Below are positions 41,010 through 60,490 of a stretch of 62,822 bases of DNA, piece after piece. The stretch lies in assembly GCA_018333865.1 (NCBI GenBank), contig JAGXSE010000041.1, positions 1-62,822 on the forward strand. The letters run 5' to 3'. The notes under the pieces were generated by a model. That model did no database searches and had not been told where the DNA came from. It saw nothing but the letters and a program-made list of their open reading frames with translations. Within the stretch, counting starts at the first letter, position 1. Each line of letters starts with the position of its first letter. The position numbers were made by a program, and so were the translations under genes. The DNA is from Syntrophomonadaceae bacterium. Its GTDB lineage: Bacteria; Bacillota; PH28-bin88.

Positions 41010-41050
41010 TGTATCTCCCCTTTGAATACTCGCCCAAATTTTATCGCCAT

Positions 41051-41102: not shown

Positions 41103-41135
41103 TTAGCCCCATAAACCTGTTAGTCCTGGTCGCGG

Positions 41136-42251: not shown

Positions 42252-42297
42252 GAAAATGTACTCCTCCCATATTTGGCTGGCCAATTAGCCTTGTCCT

Positions 42298-42373
42298 ATT
42301 ATAATCAACCCTTGTGCCAGAATATACAAAACAGGTTAAGTCTTGATTATTCTAATGTTAAATTTATGTTAAA
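42298..42373 (-). promoter_or_regulatory. Pho box and promoter of the pst operon
   Basis: On the minus strand three TTAACA-like hexamers lie on an 11-bp phase with an intervening TAATCA: TTTAACATAAA, TTTAACATTAG, AATAATCAAGA, CTTAACCTG (42373-42333). This is the tandem-repeat pattern bound by PhoB/PhoP-type regulators in Firmicutes. About 29 nt further on is TATAAT (42303-42298) without a good -35, as expected of an activator-dependent promoter. The pstS start is about 47 nt beyond it. Confidence 0.82.
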
Positions 42374-42418
42374 AGATGATCGCTGCAGTTTTTGTTAATC
42401 ATTCCTTAAATTTAGTTA

Positions 42419-43126
42419 TTATTCTTGCTCCCTGAAACGATAACCCACACCCCTGACAGTCTCAATAAATTTTGGGTTAGCCGGATCCTGTTCAATTTTT
42501 TGTCGCAGGTAGCGGATGTGTACGTCAACAGTCCTGGTGTCAGCAGCAAAATCATACCCCCAGACCTGGTCTAGAAGATAATCCCGCTTTAGCACCTTAC
42601 CGGGGCTTTGCATCAAGTGGCGCAGGAGTTCAAACTCTTTGGGTGTTAAATCGATGGATTCACCATAGAGCAGGACCTGATAATGGTCGGGACGCATCAG
42701 GATAGCCCCCGCTCTGATTTCTGCAGCCCCTTCCTTGTCCATCACCTGCCCCGCCATGTTCCGGCTCCTGAGGCGTGCTTTGACCCGGGCCGTCAATTCC
42801 CTCGGGCTGAACGGTTTTGTTACATAATCGTCAGCTCCCAGTTCCAGGCCGAGGACCTTATCAAATTCTTCCCCTTTCGCAGTAAGCAGGATTATCGGGA
42901 TAGCAGCCGTTCCTTGCCTGGCCCTCAAGAGCCGGCAGACCTCGAAACCGTCCCTGCCAGGCAGCATGACGTCCAGGATTATCACATCAGGCTCCTGGGT
43001 TTCTGCCAGTTCCAGCGCCTTGCCGCCATCGCAGGCAGTTATAACCTGGTGCCCCTCTTTTTGCAGGTTAAATTTAATTAATTCTACAATGGCTTCTTCA
43101 TCATCAACAACCAATACCTTGCCCAC
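42419..43126 (-). CDS. phoB: Phosphate-regulon response regulator PhoB/PhoP
   Basis: 235 residues. Receiver domain with D8/D9, phospho-acceptor D52 (VIILDVMLPGRDG), T in IILLTAKGEE and K in YVTKPFSPREL; winged-helix DNA-binding domain with TPKEFELLRHLM and RTVDVHIRYLRQKIE. It activates the pst operon through the Pho box just downstream of its own gene. A GTG at 43126 with a G-rich site is preferred; a TTG at 43144 is the other option. Confidence 0.94.
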   Translation of the reverse strand: MGKVLVVDDEEAIVELIKFNLQKEGHQVITACDGGKALELAETQEPDVIILDVMLPGRDGFEVCRLLRARQGTAAIPIILLTAKGEEFDKVLGLELGADDYVTKPFSPRELTARVKARLRSRNMAGQVMDKEGAAEIRAGAILMRPDHYQVLLYGESIDLTPKEFELLRHLMQSPGKVLKRDYLLDQVWGYDFAADTRTVDVHIRYLRQKIEQDPANPKFIETVRGVGYRFREQE

Positions 43127-43202
43127 TTCCCTACACCCCCCCAACGATAAAGGGAAACCAGAAAATCAAAATTGCCTGATCAATAATTATGTTATCATAA
43201 GT

Positions 43203-44666: not shown

Positions 44667-45875
44667 CTAAATTACCCCTTGCCGACGCAAGTCCAAAAGG
44701 CGATCTTCTGTAAGACCCAGCATTTCAATCAAAACCTCTTCCGTATGTTGACCCAAGCCGGGAGCAGCCGGCCTGATCTCCGGGTCAGGCATATCTGATA
44801 GCTTGATCGGGTTACCGGCCATAGGCAGCCTGCCCGCCACCGGATCCTCCATTTCCACAATCATCTTCCTGGCCCGCACCTGGGGATGGTTGACAACCTG
44901 GGCAATATTGTTGATGGGGCCGCAAGGCACTCCTGCCTCCTCCAATATAGCCAGCCATTCTGCGGTTGACCGCTGCGAAAAGGCCAGTGCCAAATGGGGC
45001 CTCAATTCCAGATAGTTTTCGGTCCTGGCCTTGTTGGTTGCAAACTGCGGCAAGTTAACGAGGTCTTCCCGTCCAAGCGCCCCGCAAAGCCTGGCCCAGA
45101 GCTGGTCGTTGCCTGCTGCCACAATAATCCATCCGTCTGATGTGGCAAAATTCTCAAAAGGGGCGATCGATGGATGGCGGCCCCCCAGAGGAGCTGGAAT
45201 CTCACCTGTCACAGCGTAACGGGCAATGGCATTTTCCAAAAGTGCCACCTGCCCATCCAGCATGGCGACATCCACAACCTGGCCCTGGCCGGTTAACCGC
45301 CGGCTGTACAGTGCTGTAACAATCCCGATGGCTGTAAACAACCCGGCCGTCAGATCCCCAATGGATGCTCCTACCCGGGTAGGCTGGCCGCCTGGTTGGC
45401 CGGTAATGCTCATCATCCCGCCGGCCCCTTGCACGATCATATCGTAGGCCGGCTTCAAGGCCCAGGGACCGGTCTGACCAAAACCGGAGCAAGCCGCATA
45501 AATCAAGGCAGGGTTGATTGCCTGCAGACTTTTCGCCCCTAGTCCCAGACGGTCCATGGCACCCGGCCGGAAGTTCTCAACCACCACGTCAACCCCCTGG
45601 ACCAACTTAGTGATCAGTTCCCGGCCCTCCCCGGACTTCAGGTTAACGGTAATACTTTTCTTTCCCCGGTTGATGCTCATAAAATAGGCGCTTTTGCCCT
45701 CCAAAAAAGGGCCAAAAGCCCTGGCATCGTCTCCCCCTTCCGGATGTTCAACTTTAATCACTTCCGCACCCATGTCAGCCAGGATCATGGTGCAGTAAGG
45801 CCCGGCCAAAACCCGGGTGAAATCCAGCACCCGGATGCCATGCAGAGGGTAAGCAGAATTGAGAATTTCCAGCAC
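44667..45875 (-). CDS. Class III CoA-transferase (CaiB/BaiF family)
   Basis: 402 residues. Moves CoA between organic acids through an aspartyl anhydride; family includes formyl-CoA:oxalate, carnitine and benzylsuccinate CoA-transferases. Seen: GIRVLDFTRVLAGPYCTMILADMGAEVIKVE in part, GDDARAFGPF, KSAYFMSINRGKKSI, the catalytic Asp in GASIGDLTAGLFTAIG, and EEAGVPCGPINNIAQV. The GTG at 45875 has GAGGAGG 7-8 nt upstream. The acid substrate cannot be named. It is followed by DUF1847 and the racemase-like gene. Confidence 0.92.
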   Translation of the reverse strand: MLEILNSAYPLHGIRVLDFTRVLAGPYCTMILADMGAEVIKVEHPEGGDDARAFGPFLEGKSAYFMSINRGKKSITVNLKSGEGRELITKLVQGVDVVVENFRPGAMDRLGLGAKSLQAINPALIYAACSGFGQTGPWALKPAYDMIVQGAGGMMSITGQPGGQPTRVGASIGDLTAGLFTAIGIVTALYSRRLTGQGQVVDVAMLDGQVALLENAIARYAVTGEIPAPLGGRHPSIAPFENFATSDGWIIVAAGNDQLWARLCGALGREDLVNLPQFATNKARTENYLELRPHLALAFSQRSTAEWLAILEEAGVPCGPINNIAQVVNHPQVRARKMIVEMEDPVAGRLPMAGNPIKLSDMPDPEIRPAAPGLGQHTEEVLIEMLGLTEDRLLDLRRQGVI

Positions 45876-46158
45876 ATGCAATCCTCCTCGCAATTATATA
45901 AATGTCCGACAAAGCTGATCATAATTGACCCCTAGCATACGCAGGGTTTTCACTTAAGCATAATATTTCTACCTTTACGAAGGATAAACCTTTGTTATTA
46001 TTTAGGGAGAAAAGCTAAAAGTCAAGAAAAAGCCCTGCTTTTCAGTAACTAGCAGGAGGTCCGGAGAAGATATTTCTCACCTTGCTTTATACGTGCAAAT
46101 TTGCCATAATCAGGGAGACTAAACTATTTCGGACCAATACTATCTATGAGGTGAAAAA

Positions 46159-47477: not shown

Positions 47478-47520
47478 ATTCAATTCAAGAACCGTCCCCG
47501 GATTTACCCGGATTTACATA
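47478..47520. repeat. REP-like AAGAACCGTCCCC fragment
   Basis: Contains AAGAACCGTCCCCGG and a short direct repeat GGATTTACCC/GGATTTACAT. It is the reverse complement of the motif at 339-380. It lies just beyond the stop codon of the DUF2877 gene. The rest of 47302-47503 shows no gene. Confidence 0.4.
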
Positions 47521-48391
47521 AGTGTTCCAAGGTGGCAAGTACCGCATGCGCGATATCAAAACCGGTGCTTGCTCCAAGCATAGTAATCCGGGACAGGATA
47601 CCGGTATTGCTCTCTCCCCGGACAAGGCTTATGAGAAAGTCCCTTGCCGGTTCCGGCGCCAGTCCCCTTCTGCCCATTTCCAGCATGTGGGCGCCAAGCA
47701 GGGTGGTGCCGGCCACAGCTTCGGGCGGGATGTGCGGCGGTTGCCAGCGCTCTCCCCTGCTTTGCTTAAAGTACCTGCAAGTTAACAGGGCGCCACAAAC
47801 CAGGTCATCACCGCTGGGAGTGGAACCCCGGCCGAGGCCAACAAGGTCTGCGCAGGCCGAGTTGAAGCCGGCGCGGTCTCCCGCAGCAAGAGAGCTAAGA
47901 AGTCTCGGAAAGCTTTCCCTGATTCGCTCTCTGAAATAGCCTTCCCCTGACGACCCGCCAATAAGAACAGAGCTTGATATATCACATCCGGCGGCCAGCA
48001 GGCTAGCTTTAACCTCCGGCAGTACGGAGCGGATAGCAGCTGTGCCGGCCGCCGGCAGAACACCGGGCGCAAAAGAGATGTCTTTACCGGCGCCCAAACA
48101 TATTGATACCTCATGATTTTTTGGAAACCAGACTGTTCCCCGACCAAAGCTTCCTTCCATGCCAGGATGCAAAACCCTGCCAAAGTTCCGGAAACCTTCC
48201 CGGGTAAGGCCAATGGTGGAAGGGCCGCGCCAGGTGACGGGAGCGGCGACCATCAATAGATGGCGCCAGCCTTCCACCCGCAGGTTGATTACCTGGTCAT
48301 GCACCGAAAGAACAGTTAATTTTCTTGGCCTTTTATAGGCCGCCAGATCCCTGGCCCACCACATTACTTCACAATCCGTTTTTCCGCTCAT
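47504..48391 (-). CDS. allH: DUF2877 protein, AllH-like subunit of an oxamate carbamoyltransferase
   Basis: 295 residues. Homologue of E. coli YlbF (AllH), which with FdrA (AllF) and YlbE (AllG) forms the three-component carbamoyltransferase converting oxalurate and phosphate to oxamate and carbamoyl phosphate. Family hallmark: DLVGLGRGSTPSGDDLVCGALLTC (about 185-210); also VAGTTLLGAHMLEMGRRGLAP and SLVRGES. Last gene of the leftward catabolic cluster, 19 nt after the permease. It is separated from its partner DUF1116 by the permease and hydroxylase genes, an unusual order. Substrate in this organism is inferred, not shown. Confidence 0.85.
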   Translation of the reverse strand: MSGKTDCEVMWWARDLAAYKRPRKLTVLSVHDQVINLRVEGWRHLLMVAAPVTWRGPSTIGLTREGFRNFGRVLHPGMEGSFGRGTVWFPKNHEVSICLGAGKDISFAPGVLPAAGTAAIRSVLPEVKASLLAAGCDISSSVLIGGSSGEGYFRERIRESFPRLLSSLAAGDRAGFNSACADLVGLGRGSTPSGDDLVCGALLTCRYFKQSRGERWQPPHIPPEAVAGTTLLGAHMLEMGRRGLAPEPARDFLISLVRGESNTGILSRITMLGASTGFDIAHAVLATLEHLCKSG

Positions 48392-48410
48392 AGCACCGAC
48401 CTGACGCTAA

Positions 48411-49841
48411 CTAATTTTCCTTGTATACATTATTAAAAATCATGTACAGGACAAGAGCGATCGGTATCGCCGGATACCAAATGATACCACCTGGGAATGG
48501 AAAGATGCCAACAGTTATGATCTGACCCGTGGGAACAGCGATCAGATAACAAAGAACCCAAGTCAGGATGAGTGAAGCATATGCCGCCTTGCTCCACCCG
48601 TTAGAGTACCAGGGGCCATCTGGTCCGTATGTGTAGAGCTTTTGCACATTAAAGTTACCTTTTCTCAACACCCAGTAGTTAGCCACCATAATGCCGGTGA
48701 TCGGACCCAATAATATGCCGTAGTTTGCCGCCCACTTTGTTGTATAGTCAACTATACCTGAAGCGTATCCAAAAGCCCACCAGGGAGCAAGGAAAAAGGC
48801 AATGATCGCGGACACATACACACCCTTTTTCCAGGACATTTTTAGTTGGGACATCAACATGCTGACCATTGGCGGAGCATTGGCGGTGATATCTGTCGAC
48901 CAGGGCGCCAGGAAGGAGAATGATAGCCCTATCAGCACAGCCAGCAAGCCGGGAGCAAACTTGAGAATAATTTCCTGGGGCAGTACAGTTCCGGTTAGTG
49001 CAACTGCAGAATACCCTAACGCCGTTCCCAAAAGTTGGCCGATAATTAGGCCGAAGAGAAGACCTATCGGGAGGGCACGGGGATTCCTGGCATCTATACC
49101 CCGGCTCAGGTCGCTGATATTTACCGATACTGTCGCCCACCAGTTTGTTTGGATAGCAAGGTATGTTAAAAAGCCCATGCTGAAATATCCTGTCGTGCTG
49201 ACAAACATATTCGGAATATTAGGGGCAAATTCAGCTGATGTAGCCAGCCAGACGACGAGCCAGAGAAAATATAGCAGGATTAATGGTCCTGCCCAATCGG
49301 CCATCTTCCCTATCCCTTTTAGGCCAAGCCGCATCACAGCAACTAAAGAGGCCAGATAAAAAACAATAGCTATCGGAAGGTAACGGATCGCCACATCCAT
49401 GATCGCATCAGCAGGTACTCCAACCAGCATCAAAAAGACCATCAACAAAGCCAGGGAGCCGACGTATACTTCTATGCCATACCAAATCGCGCCGGAAATA
49501 GCTCTCAGGATCAACGGCAGCCCAGTTCCTTTAAAGCCAAAGGGTTCCCTTAGCTGTACGGCATACGTGATGCCGTATTTTACCCCGGGTATACCGTTTA
49601 GCCACATCATGGCGGCGGCGGCCAGGTTCCCGATAAAACTTCCGATTAAAGCCTGCCAGATATCGAGACCAAAACCTTTGGCGATCGGGCCCAGGAAAAA
49701 CATCGGTATACAGGCACTCAGCGAAAACATCATCAGCGTGAAGGTCAACGTGCCATATTTCTTCTCGCTAGCCGGAACCGGCAAAAGATCTGGGTTCTCC
49801 TGGTATCCCTGCGGAACTACAGGTTGATTTTCTCCGGACAT
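48411..49841 (-). CDS. NCS1-family nucleobase/allantoin/hydantoin permease
   Basis: 476 residues, 12 membrane helices. NCS1 members carry uracil, cytosine, allantoin, hydantoin or thiamine with H+ or Na+. Seen: GYQENPDLLPVPASEKKYGT (cytosolic N-terminus), IPMFFLGPIAKGFGLDIWQALIG, NGIPGVKYGITYAVQLREPFG-type helix 2-3 loop, ISGAIWYGIEVYVGSLAL, NWWATVSVNISDLSRG and GPITGIMVANYWVLRKGNFN. The ATG at 49841 has GAAAGGGGAG. Its place inside the cluster makes it the likely importer of the heterocyclic substrate. Confidence 0.92.
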   Translation of the reverse strand: MSGENQPVVPQGYQENPDLLPVPASEKKYGTLTFTLMMFSLSACIPMFFLGPIAKGFGLDIWQALIGSFIGNLAAAAMMWLNGIPGVKYGITYAVQLREPFGFKGTGLPLILRAISGAIWYGIEVYVGSLALLMVFLMLVGVPADAIMDVAIRYLPIAIVFYLASLVAVMRLGLKGIGKMADWAGPLILLYFLWLVVWLATSAEFAPNIPNMFVSTTGYFSMGFLTYLAIQTNWWATVSVNISDLSRGIDARNPRALPIGLLFGLIIGQLLGTALGYSAVALTGTVLPQEIILKFAPGLLAVLIGLSFSFLAPWSTDITANAPPMVSMLMSQLKMSWKKGVYVSAIIAFFLAPWWAFGYASGIVDYTTKWAANYGILLGPITGIMVANYWVLRKGNFNVQKLYTYGPDGPWYSNGWSKAAYASLILTWVLCYLIAVPTGQIITVGIFPFPGGIIWYPAIPIALVLYMIFNNVYKEN

Positions 49842-49912
49842 CAATCTCTCCCCTTTCTAAAATTTCTTAAAATTAATGTTGTTTGTTGGCGCCGATCGGC
49901 GCTCTTTGTCTG

Positions 49913-52231
49913 TTATGAGATCAATTCACCCTCCTTTCTTGCTTTCTCTTTCAATGCCTGCACAATCCGTTCGGGTGTAATGGGGAAAGTATTAAATTCC
50001 ACCCCGATGGCATTAGCAACGGCATTGGCAATAGCGGGAGCCACTCCGATCATGGGAGGCTCACCCACACCCCGGGCGCCGAAAGGACCCCCCTCTTCCG
50101 GCGTCTCTAAAACGAAACAGTTGATATCGGGCACGTTTTCAATGGTGGGTATCTTATAGTCGGTATAGTTGTGGTTTAAGACCCGTCCCCTGTCCAGCTT
50201 AAGTTCTTCGTAGAGAGCGGTGCCAAGGCCCATAATGGCCCCGCCGTTAAGCTGGGCTTTGCATAGTTGCGGGTTGATGGCCTGGCCGGCATCCATCACA
50301 CTGGCAATCCGCAGCAGGTTAATGGCCCCGGTTTCCGGGTCGATTTCCACCTCCGCGGCAGTGGCGCCAAAGGTCCAGAACAGGCCGGGGTTGCCCTGAC
50401 CGGTTTCTGGATCCAGGTTGGACAGGGTGGTAGGAACCCAGGAACCCCTGCCGATGATCGGCCCGGTCAGGCCTTCACCGGTTGCTTTTTTAAAGCTGTT
50501 GGCCAGTTTTGCCACCTCGATGAATCTGCTGTGGTCCTTAACCCATCGGACAACAGTGTCACTTAGTTCCAGTTCATCTTCCGGCACACCAATGGCCGGG
50601 CCGGCCAGGGCATAAAGTTGATCCTTCACATCCTGCGCCGCTTTCAGCACTGCATTGCCGCAGCAGTAAGTGGTTCGGCTGCCCACGCTCTGCCACTCGT
50701 AAGGGGTGAAATCGGTGTCAGGCATCCGGAGCTCGATCTTTTCAGGGGGGATGTTCAGGGCTTCTGCTGTCATCTGCACAAAGACGGTTAGCATGCCCTG
50801 GCCCATCTCAGTGCTGCCGATCAGCAGGTGGACAGTGCCGTCCTCATTTAAACGGATAATAGCCGAAGACGAAGCGTTGCTGGGTTGAGCCGGTGCTTTG
50901 ACCATGCCGGCGATGCCCTTACCCCTGTATTTACCACCCTTATGACCAAAGTCAACCGCATCGGCCACCACTTTAAGGCACTGGTCGAATGCCACGTGTT
51001 TTACCACCTGACCACTGGCCGTGCTGGAGCCGTCTTTCATGCCGTTAATCAGCCTGATCTGCAGCGGGTCAATGTTAAGCATGCCTGCAATTTCGTCCAT
51101 CTGGCGTTCGATACCCCACTGCATTTCACACATGCCAAAGCCCCTGAGCGGACCTCCAACAGGGTTATTGGTGTAAACGCAGTAGGAATCGGTTTTGACG
51201 TTAGGTATATCATAAGCGCCGGTGGAGCTGTAGCCAGCGGCACGGACTATGTTAACCCCGTATTCGGTATAGGCGCCGCCGTCCCAGATCATCTCGTACT
51301 CCATTGCTGTCAGACGGCCGTCTTTTCTGACGCCGGTTTTCAAGCGGGAATAGAGAGCCTGACGGACGAAGGAACCCTGAATATCCTCCTCGCGGGTAAA
51401 CACAAGCCGGACAACATAACCTGGGCACTTTTTGGCCAGCGGGATCACCAGGCCCTCCATGGTAGCGCCGGCCTTGCCGCCGAAACCGCCGCCGATATAG
51501 TTGGAAATGATGCGGATTTTATGCAGCGGCATACCCAGTGATTTGGCCAGAAGCTGGCGCACAGCGGATGGTGACTGGGCGGTGGTCCAGATGGTAAGCT
51601 TGCCGTCTAGCCCCCACATGGCTGCGGCTTTATGGGTTTCCAGGGTGACGTGCTGGATATGGGGAACGAAGTAGTTACGTTCAATAACCAGGTCCGCTTC
51701 GGCAAAGCCCTTTTCCACATCGCCTTTGCGGAGTTTAAAATGGTTGGCGATATTGGTGCAGGATTTGGGGTAAAAAACCGGCACCAGCTCGTAACGGCAA
51801 AGTTCCTCGTGGATGAGCGGCGCATCAGGTTTCATGGCTTCCCGGGGATCAAATAAAGCCGACAGCTCTTCGTATTCTACCTCGATCAGCTCAGCAGCTG
51901 CCGCCGCCGCTTCCTCCGTAACAGCTGCCACTGCCGCCACCGGCTCGCCGTAAAACCTTACTTTATCTACGGCAAAGAAATTCCGGTCGATCAGGTACAG
52001 GCCGATGCGGTTGGGGAAGTCTTTGCCCGTTACCACAGCCTTGACACCAGGGTAGTTTTCCGCCTTTGAGGTATCAATACTCCTGATGATGGCATGGGCG
52101 ACGTTACTCTTTTTGATCTTGGCATAAAGCAGAGGGCCGATATAAAGGTCTTCCAGGAACTTCGCGCTGCCGGTCACCTTTTCAATGGCCTCTTTGCGCG
52201 GGAGGCTTGTTCCGACATATTTCAAGGACAT
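49913..52231 (-). CDS. Xanthine-dehydrogenase-type hydroxylase, molybdenum-binding subunit
   Basis: 772 residues. Binds the molybdopterin cofactor and hydroxylates an N-heterocycle or aldehyde with water. N-terminal domain (KYVGTSLPRKEAIEKVTGSA ...), then Moco motifs TIWTTAQSPSAVRQLLAKS, NYIGGGFGGKAGA, GGPLRGFGMCEMQWGIERQM, GSTEMGQGMLTVFVQMTAE, and the catalytic glutamate in GARGVGEPPMIG near the C-terminus. The ATG at 52231 with GGAAGGAGGAAG overlaps the small-subunit gene by 10 nt; the 27 upstream codons are rejected. Subunit type is certain; substrate is not (xanthine, uracil, hydantoin and nicotinate-like compounds are all possible). Confidence 0.93.
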   Translation of the reverse strand: MSLKYVGTSLPRKEAIEKVTGSAKFLEDLYIGPLLYAKIKKSNVAHAIIRSIDTSKAENYPGVKAVVTGKDFPNRIGLYLIDRNFFAVDKVRFYGEPVAAVAAVTEEAAAAAAELIEVEYEELSALFDPREAMKPDAPLIHEELCRYELVPVFYPKSCTNIANHFKLRKGDVEKGFAEADLVIERNYFVPHIQHVTLETHKAAAMWGLDGKLTIWTTAQSPSAVRQLLAKSLGMPLHKIRIISNYIGGGFGGKAGATMEGLVIPLAKKCPGYVVRLVFTREEDIQGSFVRQALYSRLKTGVRKDGRLTAMEYEMIWDGGAYTEYGVNIVRAAGYSSTGAYDIPNVKTDSYCVYTNNPVGGPLRGFGMCEMQWGIERQMDEIAGMLNIDPLQIRLINGMKDGSSTASGQVVKHVAFDQCLKVVADAVDFGHKGGKYRGKGIAGMVKAPAQPSNASSSAIIRLNEDGTVHLLIGSTEMGQGMLTVFVQMTAEALNIPPEKIELRMPDTDFTPYEWQSVGSRTTYCCGNAVLKAAQDVKDQLYALAGPAIGVPEDELELSDTVVRWVKDHSRFIEVAKLANSFKKATGEGLTGPIIGRGSWVPTTLSNLDPETGQGNPGLFWTFGATAAEVEIDPETGAINLLRIASVMDAGQAINPQLCKAQLNGGAIMGLGTALYEELKLDRGRVLNHNYTDYKIPTIENVPDINCFVLETPEEGGPFGARGVGEPPMIGVAPAIANAVANAIGVEFNTFPITPERIVQALKEKARKEGELIS

Positions 52232-52719
52232 CTCGCTTCCTCCTTCCGCCCCTGTTTTTTGCCACAGGTCTTGACGGCCTCGCGAATTTCCACGTAAGCG
52301 CCGCAACGGCAAAGGTTGCCGCTCAGGGCCTCGTTGATTTCTTTGTCGCTGGGCGACGGATTACGGTTGAGCAGGGCGCGGGCCGACATAATCATACCGG
52401 GTGTGCAGTAACCGCACTGGAAGGCACTGTGGTCGATAAAGGCCTGCTGGATCAGGTCCAGTTCCCCGTTTTTGGCCAGGCCTTCGATGGTCACCAGGTC
52501 CCTGCCGTCCAGTTCTGCGGCCAGCACAACGCAGGAATTTACCGCTTCCCCGTCCAGCAACACCATGCAGGCACCGCATTCACCCACCTCGCAGCCTTCC
52601 TTGGTGCCGGTAAGCTTTAGTTCTTCCCGGATAAATTTCAATAGACTAAGCCAAGAGTTCACTGTCCGGACCTCTTTATAACCGTTCACCGTAAAATTGA
52701 TAGTAATATTCCCTGCCAT
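52222..52719 (-). CDS. Hydroxylase [2Fe-2S] small subunit
   Basis: 165 residues with two [2Fe-2S] clusters: plant-ferredoxin type CEVGECGACMVLLDG ... C, and the second, helical CGYCTPGMIMSA ... NLCRCGAY. Carries electrons from the Mo site to FAD. The ATG at 52719 follows GGAGGTG; a GTG two codons earlier overlaps the previous stop. Middle gene of FAD - FeS - Mo subunits. Confidence 0.95.
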   Translation of the reverse strand: MAGNITINFTVNGYKEVRTVNSWLSLLKFIREELKLTGTKEGCEVGECGACMVLLDGEAVNSCVVLAAELDGRDLVTIEGLAKNGELDLIQQAFIDHSAFQCGYCTPGMIMSARALLNRNPSPSDKEINEALSGNLCRCGAYVEIREAVKTCGKKQGRKEEARCP

Positions 52720-52721
52720 AC

Positions 52722-53546
52722 TCACACCTCCATTATCTCGGCCAAACCGCGACGGACCAAGACCTCGGCCAGGTGACAGCGGTACTCACGGGAGCCACGC
52801 AGGTCGGTGATGGGAATAATATCGTCTTTAACCAGGGCTGCGGCAGCATTCCAGTCGGTCGAACCCCCGTTGACAGCTTTTTCCACCGCCTTGGCACGCA
52901 CCGGGGTGGGAGCTACAGCACTGACGGCAATCCTGATCCCGTCATCGCGCTTCTGCACAGCAACACCCACCGTTGCCAGATCCACCGAGCCAGTACGGGA
53001 GGCCTTGTAATAGATGCCTTTGCCGGCGGGGTATGGCTTTGGTATCAACACAGACACCACAAGTTCGCCTTTATTAAGCGCCGTTTTCCCGGGAGCAACA
53101 AAAAAGTCCTCGATTGCTAAAGAACGCTCGCCGCCCGGACCGGCAATATTAACCAGTGCCCCCAGGCAGTACAGGGCGGCAGCCGTGTCGGCAGCCGGGG
53201 AGGCATTGCAGATGTTCCCGGCCAGCGTTCCCCGGTTGCGGATGGAGAAGGAGCCGATATGATGGCAGGCTTTGGCCAGCACAGGCACATTTTTCGCCAC
53301 AGGTTCAAACCGCTCAATCTGGTTTAAGGTCACGGCGGCGCCGATGGTAATACCGGCCTCGTCCTCCCTTAACACTTTTAACTCTGGAATACTCTTGATA
53401 TCAAGGATCAGGCGCGGGCTGTACTTGCCTCCTCTCATGCCCACCAAGAGGTCGGTGCCGCCGGCAAGCAGAAATACACCCTCGCCGCCAAGCAACCCTG
53501 TCACCTCACTCAGAGTGGTACATTTTCTGTATGCAAAATTCCGCAT
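52722..53546 (-). CDS. Hydroxylase FAD-binding subunit
   Basis: 274 residues, CoxM/XdhB type. FAD motifs LLAGGTDLLVGMRGGKYSPR and GTLAGNICNASPAADTAAALYCLGA; C-terminal CO-dehydrogenase flavoprotein domain from about 170 (YKASRTGSVDLATVGVAVQ). Passes electrons to NAD or another acceptor. The ATG at 53546 has GGAGGTGAAGG. The stop overlaps the start of the small subunit. It follows the DUF1116 gene by about 80 nt. Confidence 0.94.
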   Translation of the reverse strand: MRNFAYRKCTTLSEVTGLLGGEGVFLLAGGTDLLVGMRGGKYSPRLILDIKSIPELKVLREDEAGITIGAAVTLNQIERFEPVAKNVPVLAKACHHIGSFSIRNRGTLAGNICNASPAADTAAALYCLGALVNIAGPGGERSLAIEDFFVAPGKTALNKGELVVSVLIPKPYPAGKGIYYKASRTGSVDLATVGVAVQKRDDGIRIAVSAVAPTPVRAKAVEKAVNGGSTDWNAAAALVKDDIIPITDLRGSREYRCHLAEVLVRRGLAEIMEV

Positions 53547-53626
53547 ACCCTTCACCTCCGGAAAAAGAAAATAGTCTAAACGCCGTTACTATTCAGGCAT
53601 GCTGGTTTTCTCATTCTGACTACTTA

Positions 53627-54940
53627 CTACTGACCACTGATTTTCGCCAGTTCCTTGAGCGCCCCAATAAAGCATTCCAAAGGAGGCAGCACAATTCCGG
53701 CGCCGATTTGCCCCACACCTGGCTCTTTGTGGGCAATGCCAGTATTAATTCGGGGCAGAATACCTTTTTCAATGACTTTCCGCACATCAATACCGGTAGG
53801 GGTGCCGCGGAAGCTCATGGCCGGGATATTGAAATTGCTGTTTTCGGCCACGGTTATTTCGTACATCTCGCTGGTAGCTTCAAAGGCATCGGCAGGCTTG
53901 CCGCCGATAAAATTCACAATGGCTGGTGCTGCCGCCATGGCAAAACCGCCGATACCCACTGTCTCGGTGATCACGCTGTCGCCGATATCAGCATTGGCGT
54001 CGTTAGTGGTAAAACCGGAGAAGTACAGGCCGGCAGGCACATTGGCCGGGCCGGTAAACCACTGATCGCCGGTGCTGCTGACGCGGATGCCAAAATCGGT
54101 GCCGTTGCGGGCCATGGTGGTGACGATGGTGGAGTTTTCGATCCCATGTGCCGCCAAGGCCATAGATTTACAGGCGGCCATGATGGCGTTCAATGACGTC
54201 AGGTCGTTGCTGTGCATAAAAGCCAGCACTTCCGCAGCGGCGGTTGGCTTAACCTCCTTGAAATAAGCACAGACGTTGGTCAGGTCTATCCTTTCACAGT
54301 CGTAGTCGTGGCTGCGGCCGGATTCGGTCTCTGCAATGCAGGGGGCCAGGGTACGGATAAACAGCGAGGTGGTGGCCCGGTTCCGGTTGTGCCCCTCGTC
54401 ACCCATATGCAAGGCCTGGGCGATGAGAGTCTTCATATCCACACCGCCGGATAGCCGGATAGCTTCTTTTAAAACTTGGGCGTAAATTGTATTGAGCCAG
54501 CGCAACCTGCGCAGCACTCCTTCATCGTAGGCGCCGTAACGCAAGACCTTGCCATAGCCCTCGTTCATATTGGAGTAGGTGCAGCCGCCGTACTCCTTGT
54601 CTTCGATGATAAACACCATCTGGGTAGGGGTTATGACACCGGCCATGGGGCCCACCGCGTTGTAGTGGTGGCAGGGAGCGAACTCGATTTCGCCCGATGC
54701 GGCCAGTTCAACTGCCTCTTCAGTTGTTCTGGCCATTTTTTCATAAATCAGGCCGCCGGTAATAGCTCCTCTCAGGGGACCGCTCATTCTATCCCAGGTA
54801 ATAGGCGGACCGGCGTGGAGAAACAGATTGTCTTTCATGCCCGGGATGACGTCCCGTGCCCGGCCGATATCGACCAGCACCGGTCTGGCACCCATCATCC
54901 TCCGGACAGCTTCCTGGTTGGCTAGGTCTATCCTGCTCAT
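53627..54940 (-). CDS. allG: DUF1116 protein, AllG-like subunit of an oxamate carbamoyltransferase
   Basis: 437 residues. Homologue of E. coli YlbE (AllG), partner of FdrA and YlbF. Seen: NQEAVRRMMGARPVLVDIGRA, FLHAGPPITWDRMSGPLRGA (substrate-site-like, conserved), CHHYNAVGPMAGVITPTQMV, MHSNDLTSLNAIMAACKSMA, ARNGTDFGIRVSSTGDQWFTGP and DSVITETVGIGGFAMAAAPA. The ATG at 54940 has AGGAGGTTC. A terminator lies just upstream, so it may have its own promoter or depend on read-through from the fdrA side. Confidence 0.9.
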   Translation of the reverse strand: MSRIDLANQEAVRRMMGARPVLVDIGRARDVIPGMKDNLFLHAGPPITWDRMSGPLRGAITGGLIYEKMARTTEEAVELAASGEIEFAPCHHYNAVGPMAGVITPTQMVFIIEDKEYGGCTYSNMNEGYGKVLRYGAYDEGVLRRLRWLNTIYAQVLKEAIRLSGGVDMKTLIAQALHMGDEGHNRNRATTSLFIRTLAPCIAETESGRSHDYDCERIDLTNVCAYFKEVKPTAAAEVLAFMHSNDLTSLNAIMAACKSMALAAHGIENSTIVTTMARNGTDFGIRVSSTGDQWFTGPANVPAGLYFSGFTTNDANADIGDSVITETVGIGGFAMAAAPAIVNFIGGKPADAFEATSEMYEITVAENSNFNIPAMSFRGTPTGIDVRKVIEKGILPRINTGIAHKEPGVGQIGAGIVLPPLECFIGALKELAKISGQ

Positions 54941-54976
54941 TACTATAGAACCTCCTGTTTGGTTGACTGTCAGTTA

Positions 54977-55006
54977 TGAAAGAAAAAGGGCCCTGGCCGG
55001 GGCCCT
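54977..55006 (-). terminator. Terminator/attenuator between the cyclase and DUF1116 genes
   Basis: On the minus strand AGGGCCCC-GGCC-AGGGCCCT (imperfect 8-bp arms) is followed by TTTTTCTTTC. It begins 13 nt after the stop of the cyclase-family gene and splits the cluster into two transcription segments. Confidence 0.8.
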
Positions 55007-55018
55007 CTTCCTGGCCCC

Positions 55019-55819
55019 TTACTGTTCCTCGTAGAAAGCCACGACTCTGGCGAAAGCAGCTTCGCCGCCTTTGAATTTCCAGGGGAAGCAGCCGATGTAC
55101 ATCCGCTTGTTCTGGAGTTCAGGGGCAGCAATGTCACCGCCTAAATTTTCAAAATGCATACAGTTGTGTTTAAACAACGCATTGTGAGTGAGCTGGTAGT
55201 GCTCCGTTGGGAATAGCTTGTCAACGGCCTCTTTGCCGCCGAATCTTTTTTCGGCCACAGCCCGCACCCGGTCACACTGGCCAAAGGTGCCTTTGCCCAG
55301 AAAGCGGCCGATGGGCAGGTTCATGGGATGGTCGGTGGAAACGGCGTCCATGCCCCAAAGCTTAATTTTTTTCTCAATGAGCCAAGGCACCATGTCGGAG
55401 TGGGCGCCGGGGTGCAGGTGAATATAACGCTCTTCATCGGGGGTCTCGCCAAAGGTGGCATACCGGCTCCAGCCGGTGTTGATCACCAGGATGTCGCCTT
55501 CACGGACTTCCACCCTTTTTTCGATCATCTCCGGAGTGTATACGGCCAGGTCTCCCATTTCGTCCCTGACATCAACGATAACACCGGGGCCGAACAGCCA
55601 TTCCATCGGCACCTCATCGATCGTCATCCCGTTAGTGACAAAATGGCGGGGAGCATCCAGATGGGTACCGATGTGGTTGGAGGTCTGGATGTACTGGGCA
55701 TTGACACCGTGCTCCGGCTTCCGCTTAAAATACTTGGCCTCAAAAGGCGGGTAATACGGCCAGAACTGGACATCCGCGTTCAGGGGCTGGGAAAGGTCAT
55801 ACAGCCTGACATTCTTCAC
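55019..55819 (-). CDS. Cyclase-family metal-dependent hydrolase
   Basis: 266 residues, kynurenine formamidase / isatin hydrolase superfamily. Metal-binding signature SNHIGTHLDAPRHF (HxGTHxDxPxH) at about 48-60, second-sphere residues GWSRYATF and the C-terminal HNALFKHNCMHFENLG. These enzymes hydrolyse amide bonds, including ring amides such as in isatin. In this cluster ring opening of a hydroxylated heterocycle is a reasonable inference. A GTG at 55819 with GGGAGG 9 nt away is preferred to the TTG at 55828. It follows the nitrilase-like gene by 23 nt. Confidence 0.9.
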   Translation of the reverse strand: MKNVRLYDLSQPLNADVQFWPYYPPFEAKYFKRKPEHGVNAQYIQTSNHIGTHLDAPRHFVTNGMTIDEVPMEWLFGPGVIVDVRDEMGDLAVYTPEMIEKRVEVREGDILVINTGWSRYATFGETPDEERYIHLHPGAHSDMVPWLIEKKIKLWGMDAVSTDHPMNLPIGRFLGKGTFGQCDRVRAVAEKRFGGKEAVDKLFPTEHYQLTHNALFKHNCMHFENLGGDIAAPELQNKRMYIGCFPWKFKGGEAAFARVVAFYEEQ

Positions 55820-55842
55820 TCTTGTCAACCTCCCTGATATTT

Positions 55843-56721
55843 TTATTTTTTCCCCTTCGCCCTGGGGAAGGGGCTCCTGCCGTCCCTCAATATGTTTTGA
55901 TAGACTTCCAGGTTCCTGTCCTCAATGTGATTGTAAACCATTGGCTCCCGGGAACCCTGTGTTACAAAGCGGAGCGGGTCGGGATCCAGTTTGGCCGAAA
56001 CAATTTCTTCCACGCCGCGGGCCTGCGCCAGTTTGATACCCCGCGGATCGATAATCAGGCTGTTGCCAAAGTAATGGTTCCCCCCGGCGTCGGTGCCAAC
56101 GGAGTTTACCGCCACCATGTAGACATGGTTATCAAAGGCACGGGCAGCACTGGTCAGATACCAGATATCAAAACTTCGGAGCAAAGCCGACGGCCGTAAA
56201 ATTACCTCGGCACCCTGCAAGGCCAGCTCACGGGAAAGCTCGGGAAAGTCGCCATCGTAACAGATGATGATGCCTATTTTGCCAAGCCTGGTATCAAACG
56301 TCTTCACTTCGGTACCCGGTGTTACCCAACCACCGCAGTTAACGTTTTCGGTGATAAAGGCATGGGTCTTGCGGTAGCTGCCCACCACCGCCCCTGCATC
56401 GTCGATAAGAGCGGCGGTATTGTAGATTGTGCCGTTTTCGCCCCTTTCATAGAAGGTGTAGCAGACATGAACACCCTTTTCGCGGGCGGCCCGGCCGATC
56501 TCGTCGGTTACCCTGCCCGGAACCGGGTCCAGCAGCTTATAGAGCTCGTTAAATGAAAGATTGTGAATAAAACCAGTAGTGATGGTTTCGGGAAAAACCA
56601 CCAAGTCAGCCTGGTGCTCCTCCGCCGCCCGGCAAATCCATTCCTTGGACTTTTTCAGGTTGTAATCCACGTCATTGGGCCGAAAGCCCATCTGCGCACA
56701 GGCCACTGTAAATTCTTTCAT
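55843..56721 (-). CDS. Carbon-nitrogen hydrolase (nitrilase superfamily)
   Basis: 292 residues. Triad motifs: Glu in VVFPETITTGF, Lys in GSYRKTHAFITE, Cys in IICYDGDFPELSREL. Also VGTDAGGNHYFGNSLIIDPRG. Family members hydrolyse amides or N-carbamoyl groups (for example beta-ureidopropionase, omega-amidase). Position between the cyclase and FdrA genes suggests it attacks an amide or ureido intermediate of the same pathway. GAGGAGGAGG precedes the ATG. It shares only family level with the amidase at 31165-32001. Confidence 0.9.
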   Translation of the reverse strand: MKEFTVACAQMGFRPNDVDYNLKKSKEWICRAAEEHQADLVVFPETITTGFIHNLSFNELYKLLDPVPGRVTDEIGRAAREKGVHVCYTFYERGENGTIYNTAALIDDAGAVVGSYRKTHAFITENVNCGGWVTPGTEVKTFDTRLGKIGIIICYDGDFPELSRELALQGAEVILRPSALLRSFDIWYLTSAARAFDNHVYMVAVNSVGTDAGGNHYFGNSLIIDPRGIKLAQARGVEEIVSAKLDPDPLRFVTQGSREPMVYNHIEDRNLEVYQNILRDGRSPFPRAKGKK

Positions 56722-56733
56722 TTGCCTCCTCCT

Positions 56734-58458
56734 CTAATTCAGCTTGTGAAGCAGGCTGAGCAAGTCTTCATTGCCAAAAGCGGGCGGGCTCCACCTGACA
56801 TGGATCACTGCATCGCCCTTTTTTTTCAGGTTCAGGGCGAAATCTTCCAGCCCCAGGTTAACTACTTTTGGTCCCTGCCGGAGCAATTCCGCTATTTTGC
56901 CCATCTCGCCTTCCCGCCGGAGCAATTCTCTTACAAACATTGCCGCATCGGCGTTGCTTGCCAGTACCGTTACCCCCGCCCCGGTCAGTTTAGCCACCTG
57001 GCCGCTGCGATCCTGGAAGTCATCGTCAGTACCGCAGACGGAGGCAACGAACACTATTTCCCGCCCTTTTGCCGCCGCCTTTTCCCTGGCTAAAAGAACA
57101 GCCCGGGCCGTTTCACCGGCAGGGTCGGGATGTGCACCGTAGCCCAGCACCAGGTCAAAAAGAATTACCGCTGTCCCCGGATCACCAGCTTCCGCTACCA
57201 GGCGCTGGTTGCGCAGGGCCGGGTCAATCATGGGGTGCAGCCTGCCCTGGGTGAATTCGTCCTCACCGAAATCAATTACCGTGTGCCCCTGGCTGCGGTA
57301 GACGTCAGCCAGCACTGCGCCGCCCTCCATGGCCAGGTTGCTGTGGATTACACCCAGTGCCTCCCGCAGGATGACTATAGTCTCGTAGGCCAGTGTGCCT
57401 CCCGAGTAAAGCGCCCTCAGGTAGCGCTGCCCACTTTTTAATTTTCGCTTTGCAGCTTCAATTTCTTCTTCCGCTGCCACCGGGACATTGCCGGCCGGGC
57501 CAATGTTATTATCTCTTAGAACAGCGACGGCAATCTTGGCGGCCTCTTTCAGCGTAGCCGCGGGGATGCACCCGGCGACGCTGATTCTGGCCGGGTCACC
57601 GCCCATAAAACAGGCCACCACCGGCTTGCCACAGTCTTTGGCCGCTGCCAGCAACCTTTCGGCCACCACCGGTTCCGGCGGCTTGGAAACCAATACAATA
57701 ACCTTTGTCTCAGGGTCGGCCTGCAGGGCCTTAATTCCCTGCAACATCATCATACCACCCATAGCAGCCTTGATATCGCGGCCGCCTGTCCCGATGCCGT
57801 GGCTTACCCCCTCACCCAGGTTGTGGATTTGGGTGGAAACCTCCTGCAGCCCTGTACCGGAGGCGGCCACGATACCAATCCCGCCTCTTTGCACCTCGTT
57901 GGCGAAAGCAAGCGGCACACCGGAAATCATTGCGGTCCCGCAGTCGGGGCCCATCACCAGCAGCCCTTTTTCCACGGCTTTCTTTTTGAGGGCTACCTCG
58001 TCTTCCAGGGAAACGTTGTCGCTGAAGATCATCAGGTGGAGCCCGGCGTCAAGGATTTTATCCGCCTCCCGCTTTACGTAACGGCCCGGCAGGGAAATCA
58101 GGGCCAGGTTGGCGCCGGGAAGCTGTTTTATGGCGGTTTCGAAGGTGCGCGGCACATACTCGCCGGTCTGGCTCCCCCGGTCCGCTGCACGGTTCAGTTC
58201 TTCCAGCACCCTTTTGACGCCTGCCTCTGCCACCTCCTGGTCAGCGGCTCTTACCGCAATAATCAGGTCATTGGCATCGGCTGCGGCTATTTCCTCCGTC
58301 CAGAGCCCGCCGGCCTGCAGAAATTTTTTGTTATGGTCGGTTCCAACGATAATCTCGGCCCCATCCACTCCATGAAGCCCCCTGACCAGGCTGGAGAGGC
58401 GCATCAGGTAAACCGAATCCCGGAACGTGTTTTTATAAATATGGGTTTTGATAAACAT
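56734..58458 (-). CDS. fdrA: FdrA (AllF), acyl-CoA-synthetase-like subunit of a carbamoyltransferase
   Basis: 574 residues. Built like fused succinyl-CoA synthetase domains: Rossmann/CoA-binding-like region with VMGPDCGTAMISGVPLAFAN, GIGIVAASGTGLQEVSTQIH, SHGIGTGGRDIKAAMGGMMM (about 170-280), then a ligase-CoA-like domain with RALYSGGTLAYETIVILRE and ILFDLVLGYGAHPDP. In E. coli it is one of three subunits of oxamate carbamoyltransferase. The ATG at 58458 with GAGGGAGAAAGG is preferred; 20 upstream codons are rejected. First gene of the operon fdrA - amidase - cyclase, behind a palindromic operator candidate. No carbamate kinase gene is in the window. Confidence 0.9.
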   Translation of the reverse strand: MFIKTHIYKNTFRDSVYLMRLSSLVRGLHGVDGAEIIVGTDHNKKFLQAGGLWTEEIAAADANDLIIAVRAADQEVAEAGVKRVLEELNRAADRGSQTGEYVPRTFETAIKQLPGANLALISLPGRYVKREADKILDAGLHLMIFSDNVSLEDEVALKKKAVEKGLLVMGPDCGTAMISGVPLAFANEVQRGGIGIVAASGTGLQEVSTQIHNLGEGVSHGIGTGGRDIKAAMGGMMMLQGIKALQADPETKVIVLVSKPPEPVVAERLLAAAKDCGKPVVACFMGGDPARISVAGCIPAATLKEAAKIAVAVLRDNNIGPAGNVPVAAEEEIEAAKRKLKSGQRYLRALYSGGTLAYETIVILREALGVIHSNLAMEGGAVLADVYRSQGHTVIDFGEDEFTQGRLHPMIDPALRNQRLVAEAGDPGTAVILFDLVLGYGAHPDPAGETARAVLLAREKAAAKGREIVFVASVCGTDDDFQDRSGQVAKLTGAGVTVLASNADAAMFVRELLRREGEMGKIAELLRQGPKVVNLGLEDFALNLKKKGDAVIHVRWSPPAFGNEDLLSLLHKLN

Positions 58459-58517
58459 TGCCTTTCTCCCTCGTGCTGTTATACCTGCAATTGCAACTTT
58501 TATAAAAACATTAAACA

Positions 58518-58551
58518 CTAAAGATATAATTCCTTTAGATAATATATCTAA
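58518..58551 (-). promoter_or_regulatory. Palindromic operator candidate upstream of fdrA
   Basis: Perfect palindrome TTAGATA-ATA-TATCTAA (58535-58551) overlapping a second inverted repeat CTAAAG-N9-CTTTAG (58518-58538). It lies 60-90 nt before the fdrA start, AT-rich as a promoter would be. The neighbouring pucR gene makes PucR a likely binder, but this is inference. Confidence 0.55.
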
Positions 58552-58579
58552 ATCAAAGGCTTTTTTTTGTGGTATCTAG

Positions 58580-58620
58580 ACAAGGATAGGGGGCGGCTTG
58601 TAGCCGCCCCCTATCCTTGT
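58580..58620. terminator. Perfect 19-bp stem-loop between pucR and fdrA
   Basis: Arms 58580-58598 and 58602-58620 are fully complementary (ACAAGGATAGGGGGCGGCT with its complement), with a 3-nt loop. No T-run follows in the pucR direction. It directly abuts the left 187-bp inverted repeat. It can act as a pucR terminator or be part of the repeat element. Confidence 0.6.
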
Positions 58621-58806
58621 TATCATAGATAGCTACCCGCTCTAATACCCCCGCTTCTAAGGAAAGGGGACACACCTGCTGAAGCCCCGGCCTGTCTTTG
58701 GGGACAGGAATGTCCCCAATTAAAGCGGCGGTCTAAGAGCGGCTACGCTACTATATTAACTGGCTCTAAGCTTCAGGCTTCGTCTGAAGCCAAGACCCAG
58801 TTGAAT
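58620..58806 (+). repeat. Left copy of a long inverted repeat (about 187 bp)
   Basis: Nearly identical in reverse complement to 62333-62531. Shared landmarks are TATCATAGA, AGCTACCCGCTCTAATACCC, GGAAAGGGGACACACCTGCT, CCTGTCTTTGGGGACAGG, AATGTCCCCAATTAAAGCGG, CTATATTAACTGGCTCTAAG and CCAAGACCCAGTTGAAT. The copies differ mostly in one apical hairpin: here CTTCAG-GCTTCGT-CTGAAG. Internal GGGGACA/TGTCCCC palindromes link it to the 59-bp repeats at 3.3 kb. The last codons and stop of pucR lie inside it. Confidence 0.9.
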
Positions 58807-60490
58807 CCCGGTCCGAACCGAGCAGCTTCAGGATATTTACTGCGATTTCCATGTTCAGGGAGTCTTCTGGATTGTCCAGGTGCGTTCCGGTCAGTTCTTC
58901 AATTTTTCTGATCCGGTAGAGTATGGTGTTGTAGTGGGTAAACATCTTTTCGGAGGTGATCCTCAGGTTACGGTTGACCTCGTAGTAGGTTTCCAGCGTC
59001 CTGATCAGCTCGCCGTTTTTGTTCTTGTCGTAAGCAAAAACCGGAGCCAGGAGATCCTCCACAAACTTATACAGGTCTTTTTTATTTTTTTCACTGAGGA
59101 TTTTATAAAAGCCCAGTTCCTCAAAATGGAGAACAGACGCAACTTTAGAAAGCTGGCAGATTTTCAGGGCTTCCCGGGCCTCCTGAAAACTCTGACTTAT
59201 TTTGGAGATATTCTGGTAAGGCCTGCCAACACCGATTTTCAGATCTTTAGAGCCGGTACTGTCTATCAAGTGCCGGGATAATTCCTTGACGATCTTTTTA
59301 AGGTCTTCGGCAGAATTATCACGTTTAAGTTCTGCCACCACCACTATGTTTGTACCCTTGATGCCGGCAATCAGGTTTTTGTGGCAGCGCCGGTACGAGT
59401 TGATGGTTTTTAAAAGTTCTTCCTTGGCACTTTGCCTGTTGATGCCTTTCATCGGCAGACGCATTTCTTCTATCCCGTTAAAGCTGTTGTCGTTGACAAT
59501 AGCCACTGCTGTCGGATTCTGCAAGTTAATATCGAAGATCCGGCCTCTTTTTATGATATCTTCTTCGTTTTCGAAGTCGCAGGAGAGGAGAATTTCCAGA
59601 AACTCATTGTAATAACCCTTTTCAATTTCGAAGATGGCTTTGCGCTTGGTAAACTCCAGGGCGGCGATGGTTGCCGCCCGCTCCAGGATAAGCACATCCG
59701 TCTCACTCATAGGATTGTCGTAAATGGCATAGATGTGCCCGTACTGGCAGATGTCGGTTACGATGGGAATTTTTATTGCCTGCATGGTCAGGGGTTTTTC
59801 CCGGCCCGTGGTATGTTCCAGCAAATACCGGACTTCGCGGATACTGCCAAAACGCAGTTTCTCGTCCCGCACATTGACGCTGTCGGTAAAAAAGAGTTCA
59901 ATTTTCTTTGGGTCAGCACCTTCGTCAGAAAGGATGACGACGCCATCCCCATCAACAATGGCAACAAGATTGCCAATCAGTTTGGCGGTTTCTCTACAGA
60001 GACCCTTCAGTGAGCTGCCGTGCAGCACGATGTCCATCAGTTTCCTGTGGGCATGGTCCAGTTTTTGGAGAATTTTGTTTTGCTTGTTAAAAATCACGCC
60101 CAGGATGGGAGCGATTATTTCCGAAAAGGACAGGTCAAACGGGACTTCCAGCAAAGGGATGTGATGCTCGTCGGCGCGCCTGATCAGCTCTTCGGGTATC
60201 TCCCTGATAAAACGCTTGGGTTTGATGGCCAGCCCGGCTACTCCTTTTTCTTCCATCCTTGGCAGGAGCTTTTCCATCAAGTCAGGATACTCCCGGAAGG
60301 AATAGCCGGTGGTGAGCAGCAATTCTCCCTCCATCATCCAGTCCACAATATCCGGCACCTCGATGACGTTTACCAGCTTGATGACACGCCCCAGGCCTTC
60401 TCTGCCCCCAACTACGTTCAGCCTGTTGACAACTCCGAGCGAAAGGGCCTCCTTGACCGTTATGCCGTATTGTTTCTGCAAAAGCTCCAC
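58766..60490 (-). CDS. PucR-family transcriptional regulator
   Basis: 574 residues. N-terminal PucR domain (TVKEALSLGVVNRLNVVGG ... MMEGELLLTTGYSFREYPDL), middle GAF/GGDEF-like CdaR domain (about 290-430: EIEKGYYNEFLEILLSCDFE ... KIGVGRPYQNISKISQSFQE) and C-terminal HTH_30 domain (LIRTLETYYEVNRNLRITSE ... THYNTILYRIRKIEELTG). The family controls purine, allantoin and related catabolism. It probably regulates fdrA and its neighbours. The final residues STGSWLQTKPEA are encoded by the inverted repeat, so the natural end of the protein was probably replaced. Start uncertain: GTG at 60490 or TTG at 60481, which fits GGAGGTG better. Confidence 0.92.
   Translation of the reverse strand: MELLQKQYGITVKEALSLGVVNRLNVVGGREGLGRVIKLVNVIEVPDIVDWMMEGELLLTTGYSFREYPDLMEKLLPRMEEKGVAGLAIKPKRFIREIPEELIRRADEHHIPLLEVPFDLSFSEIIAPILGVIFNKQNKILQKLDHAHRKLMDIVLHGSSLKGLCRETAKLIGNLVAIVDGDGVVILSDEGADPKKIELFFTDSVNVRDEKLRFGSIREVRYLLEHTTGREKPLTMQAIKIPIVTDICQYGHIYAIYDNPMSETDVLILERAATIAALEFTKRKAIFEIEKGYYNEFLEILLSCDFENEEDIIKRGRIFDINLQNPTAVAIVNDNSFNGIEEMRLPMKGINRQSAKEELLKTINSYRRCHKNLIAGIKGTNIVVVAELKRDNSAEDLKKIVKELSRHLIDSTGSKDLKIGVGRPYQNISKISQSFQEAREALKICQLSKVASVLHFEELGFYKILSEKNKKDLYKFVEDLLAPVFAYDKNKNGELIRTLETYYEVNRNLRITSEKMFTHYNTILYRIRKIEELTGTHLDNPEDSLNMEIAVNILKLLGSDRDSTGSWLQTKPEA

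Follow-up and report, generated by a model that had tools for sequence, protein, structure and literature searches.

What does an AllFGH-type carbamoyltransferase do in a genome with no recognizable allantoinase? The question is raised by a cluster of minus-strand genes on a 62,822-nucleotide contig (JAGXSE010000041.1 of assembly GCA_018333865.1) from a Syntrophomonadaceae bacterium; this contig, the whole stretch of DNA analysed, is referred to below as the window. The cluster combines homologues of all three AllFGH subunits with a molybdenum (Mo) hydroxylase, a cyclase-family hydrolase, a nitrilase-family amidase and a permease. We conclude that it probably specifies a version of oxidative pyrimidine degradation that runs anaerobically and conserves energy. 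The reactions, and the pyrimidine used by this host, are predictions drawn from the observed gene identities, gene order, conservation and co-occurrence.

A preliminary description of this DNA listed ten leftward genes, and all ten open reading frames were confirmed, with their coordinates, on the minus strand. Pfam places all ten proteins in the families first named, each above the gathering score, and AllF/FdrA also passes the cut-off of NCBIfam NF004760. Nine of the genes (AllF, nitrilase, cyclase, AllG, the FAD, 2Fe-2S and Mo-binding large subunits of the hydroxylase, NCS1 permease and AllH, in that order) are separated by gaps of 12-78 bp plus two short overlaps, and are thus read as one operon. 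The gene for a PucR regulator lies 247 bp upstream of this run. Missed earlier were a CaiB-family CoA-transferase gene (44667-45893) and a carbamate kinase gene on contig C57 of the same genome. The features are as follows.

44667..45893, minus strand: CaiB-family (class III) CoA-transferase, proposed to activate malonate (or methylmalonate); outside the range of the preliminary description
47504..48391, minus strand: AllH-like third subunit (DUF2877; PF11392, 57 bits)
48411..49844, minus strand: NCS1 nucleobase/ureide permease (PF02133, 127 bits)
49913..52312, minus strand: Mo-hydroxylase large subunit, proposed to convert uracil to barbiturate (MoCoBD_1/2, 261/251 bits)
52222..52725, minus strand: Mo-hydroxylase 2Fe-2S subunit (Fer2_2, 117 bits)
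52722..53555, minus strand: Mo-hydroxylase FAD subunit (FAD_binding_5, 160 bits)
53627..54940, minus strand: AllG subunit (DUF1116) of the carbamoyl-transferring enzyme (PF06545, 300 bits)
55019..55828, minus strand: cyclase-family metal hydrolase, proposed barbiturate hydrolase (PF04199, 139 bits)
55843..56721, minus strand: nitrilase-superfamily amidase, proposed malonamate amidase (PF00795, CN_hydrolase, 183 bits)
56734..58518, minus strand: AllF/FdrA subunit (NF004760, 565 bits, cut-off 433)
58766..60490, minus strand: PucR-family regulator (PF07905, PF13556 and PF17853; 117 bits)

In the proposed route, the permease would take up uracil or a close relative, and the three-subunit Mo-hydroxylase would oxidize uracil (C4H4N2O2) at C6 to barbiturate. 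The cyclase-family metal hydrolase would open the barbiturate ring to form ureidomalonate, which AllFGH would cleave with phosphate to malonamate and carbamoyl phosphate (the chemistry of oxalurate conversion to oxamate, with one more carbon). Carbamate kinase, encoded elsewhere in the window genome and within the cluster in relatives, would use carbamoyl phosphate and ADP to form ATP. The amidase would convert malonamate to malonate and NH3, and the CaiB CoA-transferase (or, in Chloroflexota, the malonyl-CoA synthetase MatB) would convert malonate to malonyl-CoA. In relatives, a Na+-pumping decarboxylase of the MmdABCD type would then yield acetyl-CoA and CO2. PucR is the putative regulator of the cluster. 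The balanced sum is uracil + 4 H2O -> acetate + 2 CO2 + 2 NH3 + 2[H]. The preliminary description had already suggested ring oxidation, ring opening, AllFGH and amidase as successive steps; this order is backed by the genes that recur together in two phyla, and the reactions themselves stay predicted.

As reported earlier, the three AllFGH subunit homologues are encoded together. Their identities to the E. coli counterparts are 42% (AllF), 45% (AllG) and 24% (AllH), and AllF is without the HAGA phospho-histidine motif of succinyl-CoA synthetase. In E. coli, AllFGH is an oxamic transcarbamylase that works with AllK (Kim and Kim 2024, PMC11326118). The window system resembles AllFGH/AllK in its three homologous subunits and in the proposed splitting of an acylurea by phosphate into an amide acid and carbamoyl phosphate, followed by carbamate kinase. 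It differs in the absence of allantoin genes, in a proposed substrate (ureidomalonate) that is one carbon longer, in its coupling to a cyclase, Mo-hydroxylase and amidase, and in the placement of AllG, which has a single copy in this genome, at this locus. In the AllG tree, rows from cyclase contexts are clustered, requiring 8 changes versus 30.5 when shuffled. E. coli AllG shares a group of 20 rows (support 89) with all allantoin-context AllG and with none of the cyclase-type rows, and the window AllG falls in cyclase-associated groups apart from E. coli AllG. Judged by its sequence, the window enzyme very likely works like AllFGH, yet it should not be filed as an oxamate enzyme because its AllG lies outside the E. 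coli/allantoin-type group.

The absence of the usual allantoin genes, part of the preliminary description, held up over a wider search. No allantoinase scores above the cut-off in the whole window genome or in the same-family genomes G001 and G002, and allantoin degradation was thus rejected for the window genome. The best match below the cut-off (273 bits) is a dihydropyrimidinase/hydantoinase of a purine cluster described below. Among 77 cluster-bearing genomes, 7 have an allantoinase above the cut-off. AllD and AllE are in none of 54 surveyed loci in a search near AllFGH only, and AllC, also not searched genome-wide, is in none of the 30 of these loci that are of cyclase type. In nitrifiers, AllFGHK without upstream allantoin genes has been read as evidence of oxalurate use (PMC12625717).

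The gene company of AllFGH was followed in two samples. For the first, genome contigs were scanned with AllG and 80 loci were chosen by AllG similarity; these comprise close relatives at ~80% identity, from Bacillota, and a second group at ~60% identity, mostly from Chloroflexota. Near AllG in 81 loci (window included) we identified AllF (66), the FAD subunit (62), the cyclase (59), the 2Fe-2S subunit (56) and the Mo subunit (53). If there are one to three cyclase copies per genome, chance would be expected to place one within 10 kb in no more than a few percent of loci. The second sample is an even draw of 398 genomes across Bacillota; AllG is encoded in 59 of them (about 15%). The survey covers 54 neighbourhoods, 52 from this draw plus those of G001 and G002, and its counts are lower bounds because the regions end at 20 kb and a simple gene caller was used. 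Thirty of the 54 carry the cyclase. Of these 30 cyclase-type loci, at least 24 have PucR, at least 23 Mo-hydroxylase subunits, at least 17 carbamate kinase, at least 16 an NCS2 permease and at least 15 a nitrilase. None has AllB or AllC. In the 24 loci without a cyclase, nitrilase is found in none and AllB in 5. The same-family genome G001 has the run PucR-AllH-AllF-AllG-cyclase-carbamate kinase-FAD-MoL-permease (MoL being the Mo-hydroxylase large subunit), and G002 has a similar cluster plus CaiB and nitrilase. The cluster is thus strongly conserved in relatives, and its recurrence across phyla and in the even Bacillota draw rules out a chance neighbourhood.

The cyclase residues HxGTHxD (H52, H56, D58) and E227 are invariant in 27 aligned sequences. 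A structural model of moderate confidence (predicted local distance difference test score, pLDDT, 77.6) most closely resembles isatin hydrolase, and also kynurenine formamidase, which share the fold and metal motif (PF04199). Isatin hydrolase cleaves a lactam ring adjacent to a carbonyl, as is proposed for the window cyclase; identity to these enzymes is about 20-24%, and activity on barbiturate would extend the family's substrate range. The nitrilase motifs PET, RKTH and ICYD carry the expected Glu-Lys-Cys triad. Nitrilase alone is found in 14 loci, an amidase-signature enzyme alone in 21 and both in 1, the pattern predicted for two enzymes that hydrolyse the same amide. The true start of the Mo-hydroxylase large subunit is probably internal, near residue 28. 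This subunit scores 572 bits against the XdhA family (cut-off 780), and its catalytic Glu751 is kept in 70 of 70 relatives; the active-site comparison does not single out a substrate.

The oxidative pyrimidine pathway of Rhodococcus consists of uracil dehydrogenase, barbiturase and ureidomalonase. The route proposed here shares its intermediates (barbiturate, ureidomalonate and malonate). Unlike in Rhodococcus, ring opening is assigned to the cyclase family, which is unrelated to barbiturase (AtzD fold), and ureidomalonate would be cleaved with phosphate so that ATP is saved, whereas Rhodococcus hydrolyses it to urea. AtzD/TrzD-family barbiturase was identified in 0 of the 77 genomes, but no control genome matched either.

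Genes for the fate of malonate are most complete in genome G195 (L201 and L141). There, one direction of transcription takes in PucR-AllH-AllF-AllG-CaiB-cyclase-carbamate kinase-nitrilase-(nitroreductase-like)-MmdA-D-C-B-FAD-FeS-MoL-permease, where MmdD is a 102-residue delta-like protein and MmdC is the biotin carrier. This stretch would hold every proposed step. Near-complete gene sets occur in G455, G223 and G348, and also in G414, where no Mo-hydroxylase was seen at the locus. In G414, whose cyclase is 85% identical to that of the window, 15 bp separate CaiB from MmdA, with MmdB close behind. MmdA of Bacillota relatives has TIGR01117 as its best and only family (632-888 bits, or 755-888 bits for full-length copies, below the cut-off of 998.8). 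MmdB, the Na+-pump beta subunit, scores 500-524 bits against TIGR01109 (cut-off 190.6), and the biotin carrier bears an MKM motif. Seven Chloroflexota clusters have MatB in place of MmdABCD (565 bits for the one tested, NCBIfam cut-off 558). The CaiB family adjoins AllF/AllG/AllH in 25 further loci and is thus a conserved partner. Malonomonas rubra carries out Na+-dependent malonate fermentation. The relatives' predicted decarboxylation of malonate or malonyl-CoA with a Na+-pumping beta subunit resembles this system and the methylmalonyl-CoA decarboxylase MmdABCD, and differs in being joined to pyrimidine degradation.

Which ring enters the pathway? Identity of the G195 permease to E. coli UraA is 60% over a 430-residue alignment, as against 25-30% to XanP/XanQ/UacT, which transport xanthine and urate; G001 and G002 have permeases that cluster with UraA and RutG. 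The NCS2 signature begins with Glu290 in UraA, whereas in XanP, XanQ and UacT it begins with Gln; nearly all cluster permeases have Glu at this position, the exceptions being L020 and L181. Cytosine-deaminase-like genes were identified at L060, L076 and L145. At L024 (11468-16116), the de novo pyrimidine genes pyrC-pyrB-pyrFE-pyrD interrupt the stretch from AllG to the Mo-hydroxylase and are followed by mmdA; PyrB might there draw on carbamoyl phosphate made by AllFGH. On sequence evidence, a substrate that is uracil or a close pyrimidine is favoured.

It is unlikely that the same pathway serves thymine or another 5-substituted pyrimidine instead. Thymine would pass through 5-methylbarbiturate, ureidomethylmalonate, methylmalonamate, methylmalonate and methylmalonyl-CoA to propionyl-CoA, in keeping with the relatives' decarboxylase alpha subunit, which is closest to methylmalonyl-CoA decarboxylase. 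This name is not decisive, since MmdA-type enzymes act on malonyl-CoA too, and the permease of the fullest operon (G195) is a UraA orthologue. Two further observations speak for thymine. The window lies in a separate branch whose permeases are NCS1 or Gln-type, and the single-contig genomes G347 (L139, L169) and G414 (L150, L181) each have two paralogous AllFG-cyclase clusters, one with an NCS1 or Gln-type NCS2 permease and the other without, which suggests two substrates.

The preliminary description had left open two options, uracil via barbiturate to ureidomalonate, and hydantoin via parabanate to oxalurate. The first is favoured by the malonate genes. In the second, hydantoin or a related five-membered ring would lead to oxalurate, AllFGH would be an oxamic transcarbamylase and the nitrilase would make oxalate; we regard this as improbable. 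Oxalurate is the only proven substrate of AllFGH (PMC11326118). The window NCS1 permease, which has a homologue at the same position in L169, has the Mhp1 hydantoin permease as its sole PDB relative (73 bits), and the closest PDB match of CaiB is YfdE, a CoA:oxalate CoA-transferase. Against these points, oxalyl-CoA decarboxylase is found in 0 of the 77 cluster-bearing genomes, with the E. coli control positive, and the neighbouring malonyl-CoA synthetase and malonyl/methylmalonyl-CoA decarboxylase genes do not fit oxalate. The UraA-like permeases of relatives and the separation of the window AllG from the E. coli group also count against this option. The missing oxalyl-CoA decarboxylase and the malonate genes make the oxalurate/oxalate branch unlikely. 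MCD-family malonyl-CoA decarboxylase (PF05292) was likewise found in 0 of 77, a result of little weight since no control genome matched either. Because relatives have CaiB-MmdA, MmdABCD or malonyl-CoA synthetase and lack oxalyl-CoA decarboxylase, malonate (or methylmalonate), rather than oxamate or oxalate, is favoured as the predicted product.

Least probable of all is another cyclic ureide (e.g., a dihydropyrimidine, cyanurate or a purine-derived ring) with incidental malonate neighbours: several AllFGH contexts occur without a cyclase and the cyclase of Syntrophomonadaceae genomes sits near methyltransferase-like genes, but malonate genes lie within the same gene runs in five genomes and the window genome has a separate purine-degradation cluster.

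This purine cluster is on contig C57 of the window genome, G000 (L105:10725-16348 and L106:3185-19184). It encodes adenine deaminase, SsnA, a PreA/UacX-like flavoprotein, dihydropyrimidinase/hydantoinase, a YgeW/OTC-like carbamoyltransferase, YgeY, Mo-hydroxylases, a BMP-type transporter and the genome's carbamate kinase (382 bits, over the cut-off), a gene that the preliminary description had suggested looking for elsewhere in the genome. The C57 cluster corresponds to the reductive uric acid pathway of the literature (PMC12507026), and the window cluster is therefore unlikely to serve purines; a role in purine or uric acid degradation was rejected. The two have in common anaerobic N-heterocycle catabolism, a Mo-enzyme and carbamate kinase. 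The reductive uric acid pathway differs in having YgeW, its carbamoyltransferase, and SsnA, HyuA, YgeY and YgeX.

Several observations weigh against uracil degradation as set out here. CaiB is the only malonate-branch gene at the window locus, and it scores nearly equally for succinate/glutarate (391 bits) and oxalate (381 bits) CoA-transferases in NCBIfam, both below cut-off. MmdAB(CD) is not at the window locus, the rest of the genome not having been searched for MmdAB, and only weak relatives of MatB occur in this genome. The window permease is NCS1, with no assignment to a particular transporter, rather than UraA-like, and L181, the closest locus by cyclase, has a Gln-type permease; the window sub-branch might use another pyrimidine. 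Carbamate kinase is not inside the window cluster, and this, with the NCS1 permease, makes the window's exact pyrimidine less certain. The Mo-hydroxylases split into two subtypes, Bacillota versus Chloroflexota. Finally, 14 Syntrophomonadaceae-type loci have no cyclase beside AllFG; most of these genomes have a tandem cyclase elsewhere, in different gene company.

Tandem-fused cyclases of ~555 residues occur in Syntrophomonadaceae-type genomes at L133 (6401-8065), L134, L135, L136 and L137. They adjoin genes named by eye as MttB-like, methyltetrahydrofolate methyltransferase-like and hydantoinase-like, and perhaps have a role on a methylated ureide. In an Anaerolineales genome (L138:7400-10602), a tandem cyclase overlaps a malonyl-CoA-synthetase-like gene (358 bits, below the cut-off of 558). 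L158, L167, L160 and L162 are further AllFGH contexts that lack a cyclase, of two kinds: one has two 519-residue permease-like proteins, a RutB-like hydrolase and carbamate kinase, and in the other carbamate kinase accompanies a 367-residue protein and an NCS2 permease of Gln type.

Elsewhere in the window, a perfect 17-bp inverted repeat (CAAGGATAGGGGGCGGC-TTGTA-GCCGCCCCCTATCCTTG) at 58581-58619, between PucR and AllF, may be a terminator, attenuator or regulator site. Upstream of PucR (60611-62173) is a 520-residue protein with no NCBIfam family above cut-off; by eye it resembles a DUF1343-type protein, with copper-amine-oxidase-N-type repeats at the C-terminus. Genes for phosphate uptake (pstA, pstC and pstS) and an OmpR-type response regulator are located near the CaiB gene (39163-43144).

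Known bacterial routes for uracil are the reductive, oxidative, Rut and URC pathways (PMC12507026). In the open-access literature we found no description of a route that combines barbiturate with carbamoyl phosphate or AllFGH. On balance, we think it likely that uracil fermentation of this kind is widespread in anaerobic Bacillota and Chloroflexota, with Mo-dependent oxidation, a cyclase-family barbiturate hydrolase, ATP-yielding AllFGH and Na+-exporting decarboxylation, and that AllFGH in Bacillota is mainly a pyrimidine enzyme; about half of the AllFGH loci examined in that phylum carry the cyclase. If correct, this would give functions to three protein groups that are common but so far unassigned, namely a PF04199 cyclase subfamily, the nitrilase and amidase beside AllG, and AllFGH outside allantoin metabolism, and would correct the automatic annotation of these cluster genes as allantoin or xanthine degradation. 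Anaerobes would have a further, energy-conserving route for uracil, one that combines substrate-level phosphorylation with a sodium pump on a nucleobase.

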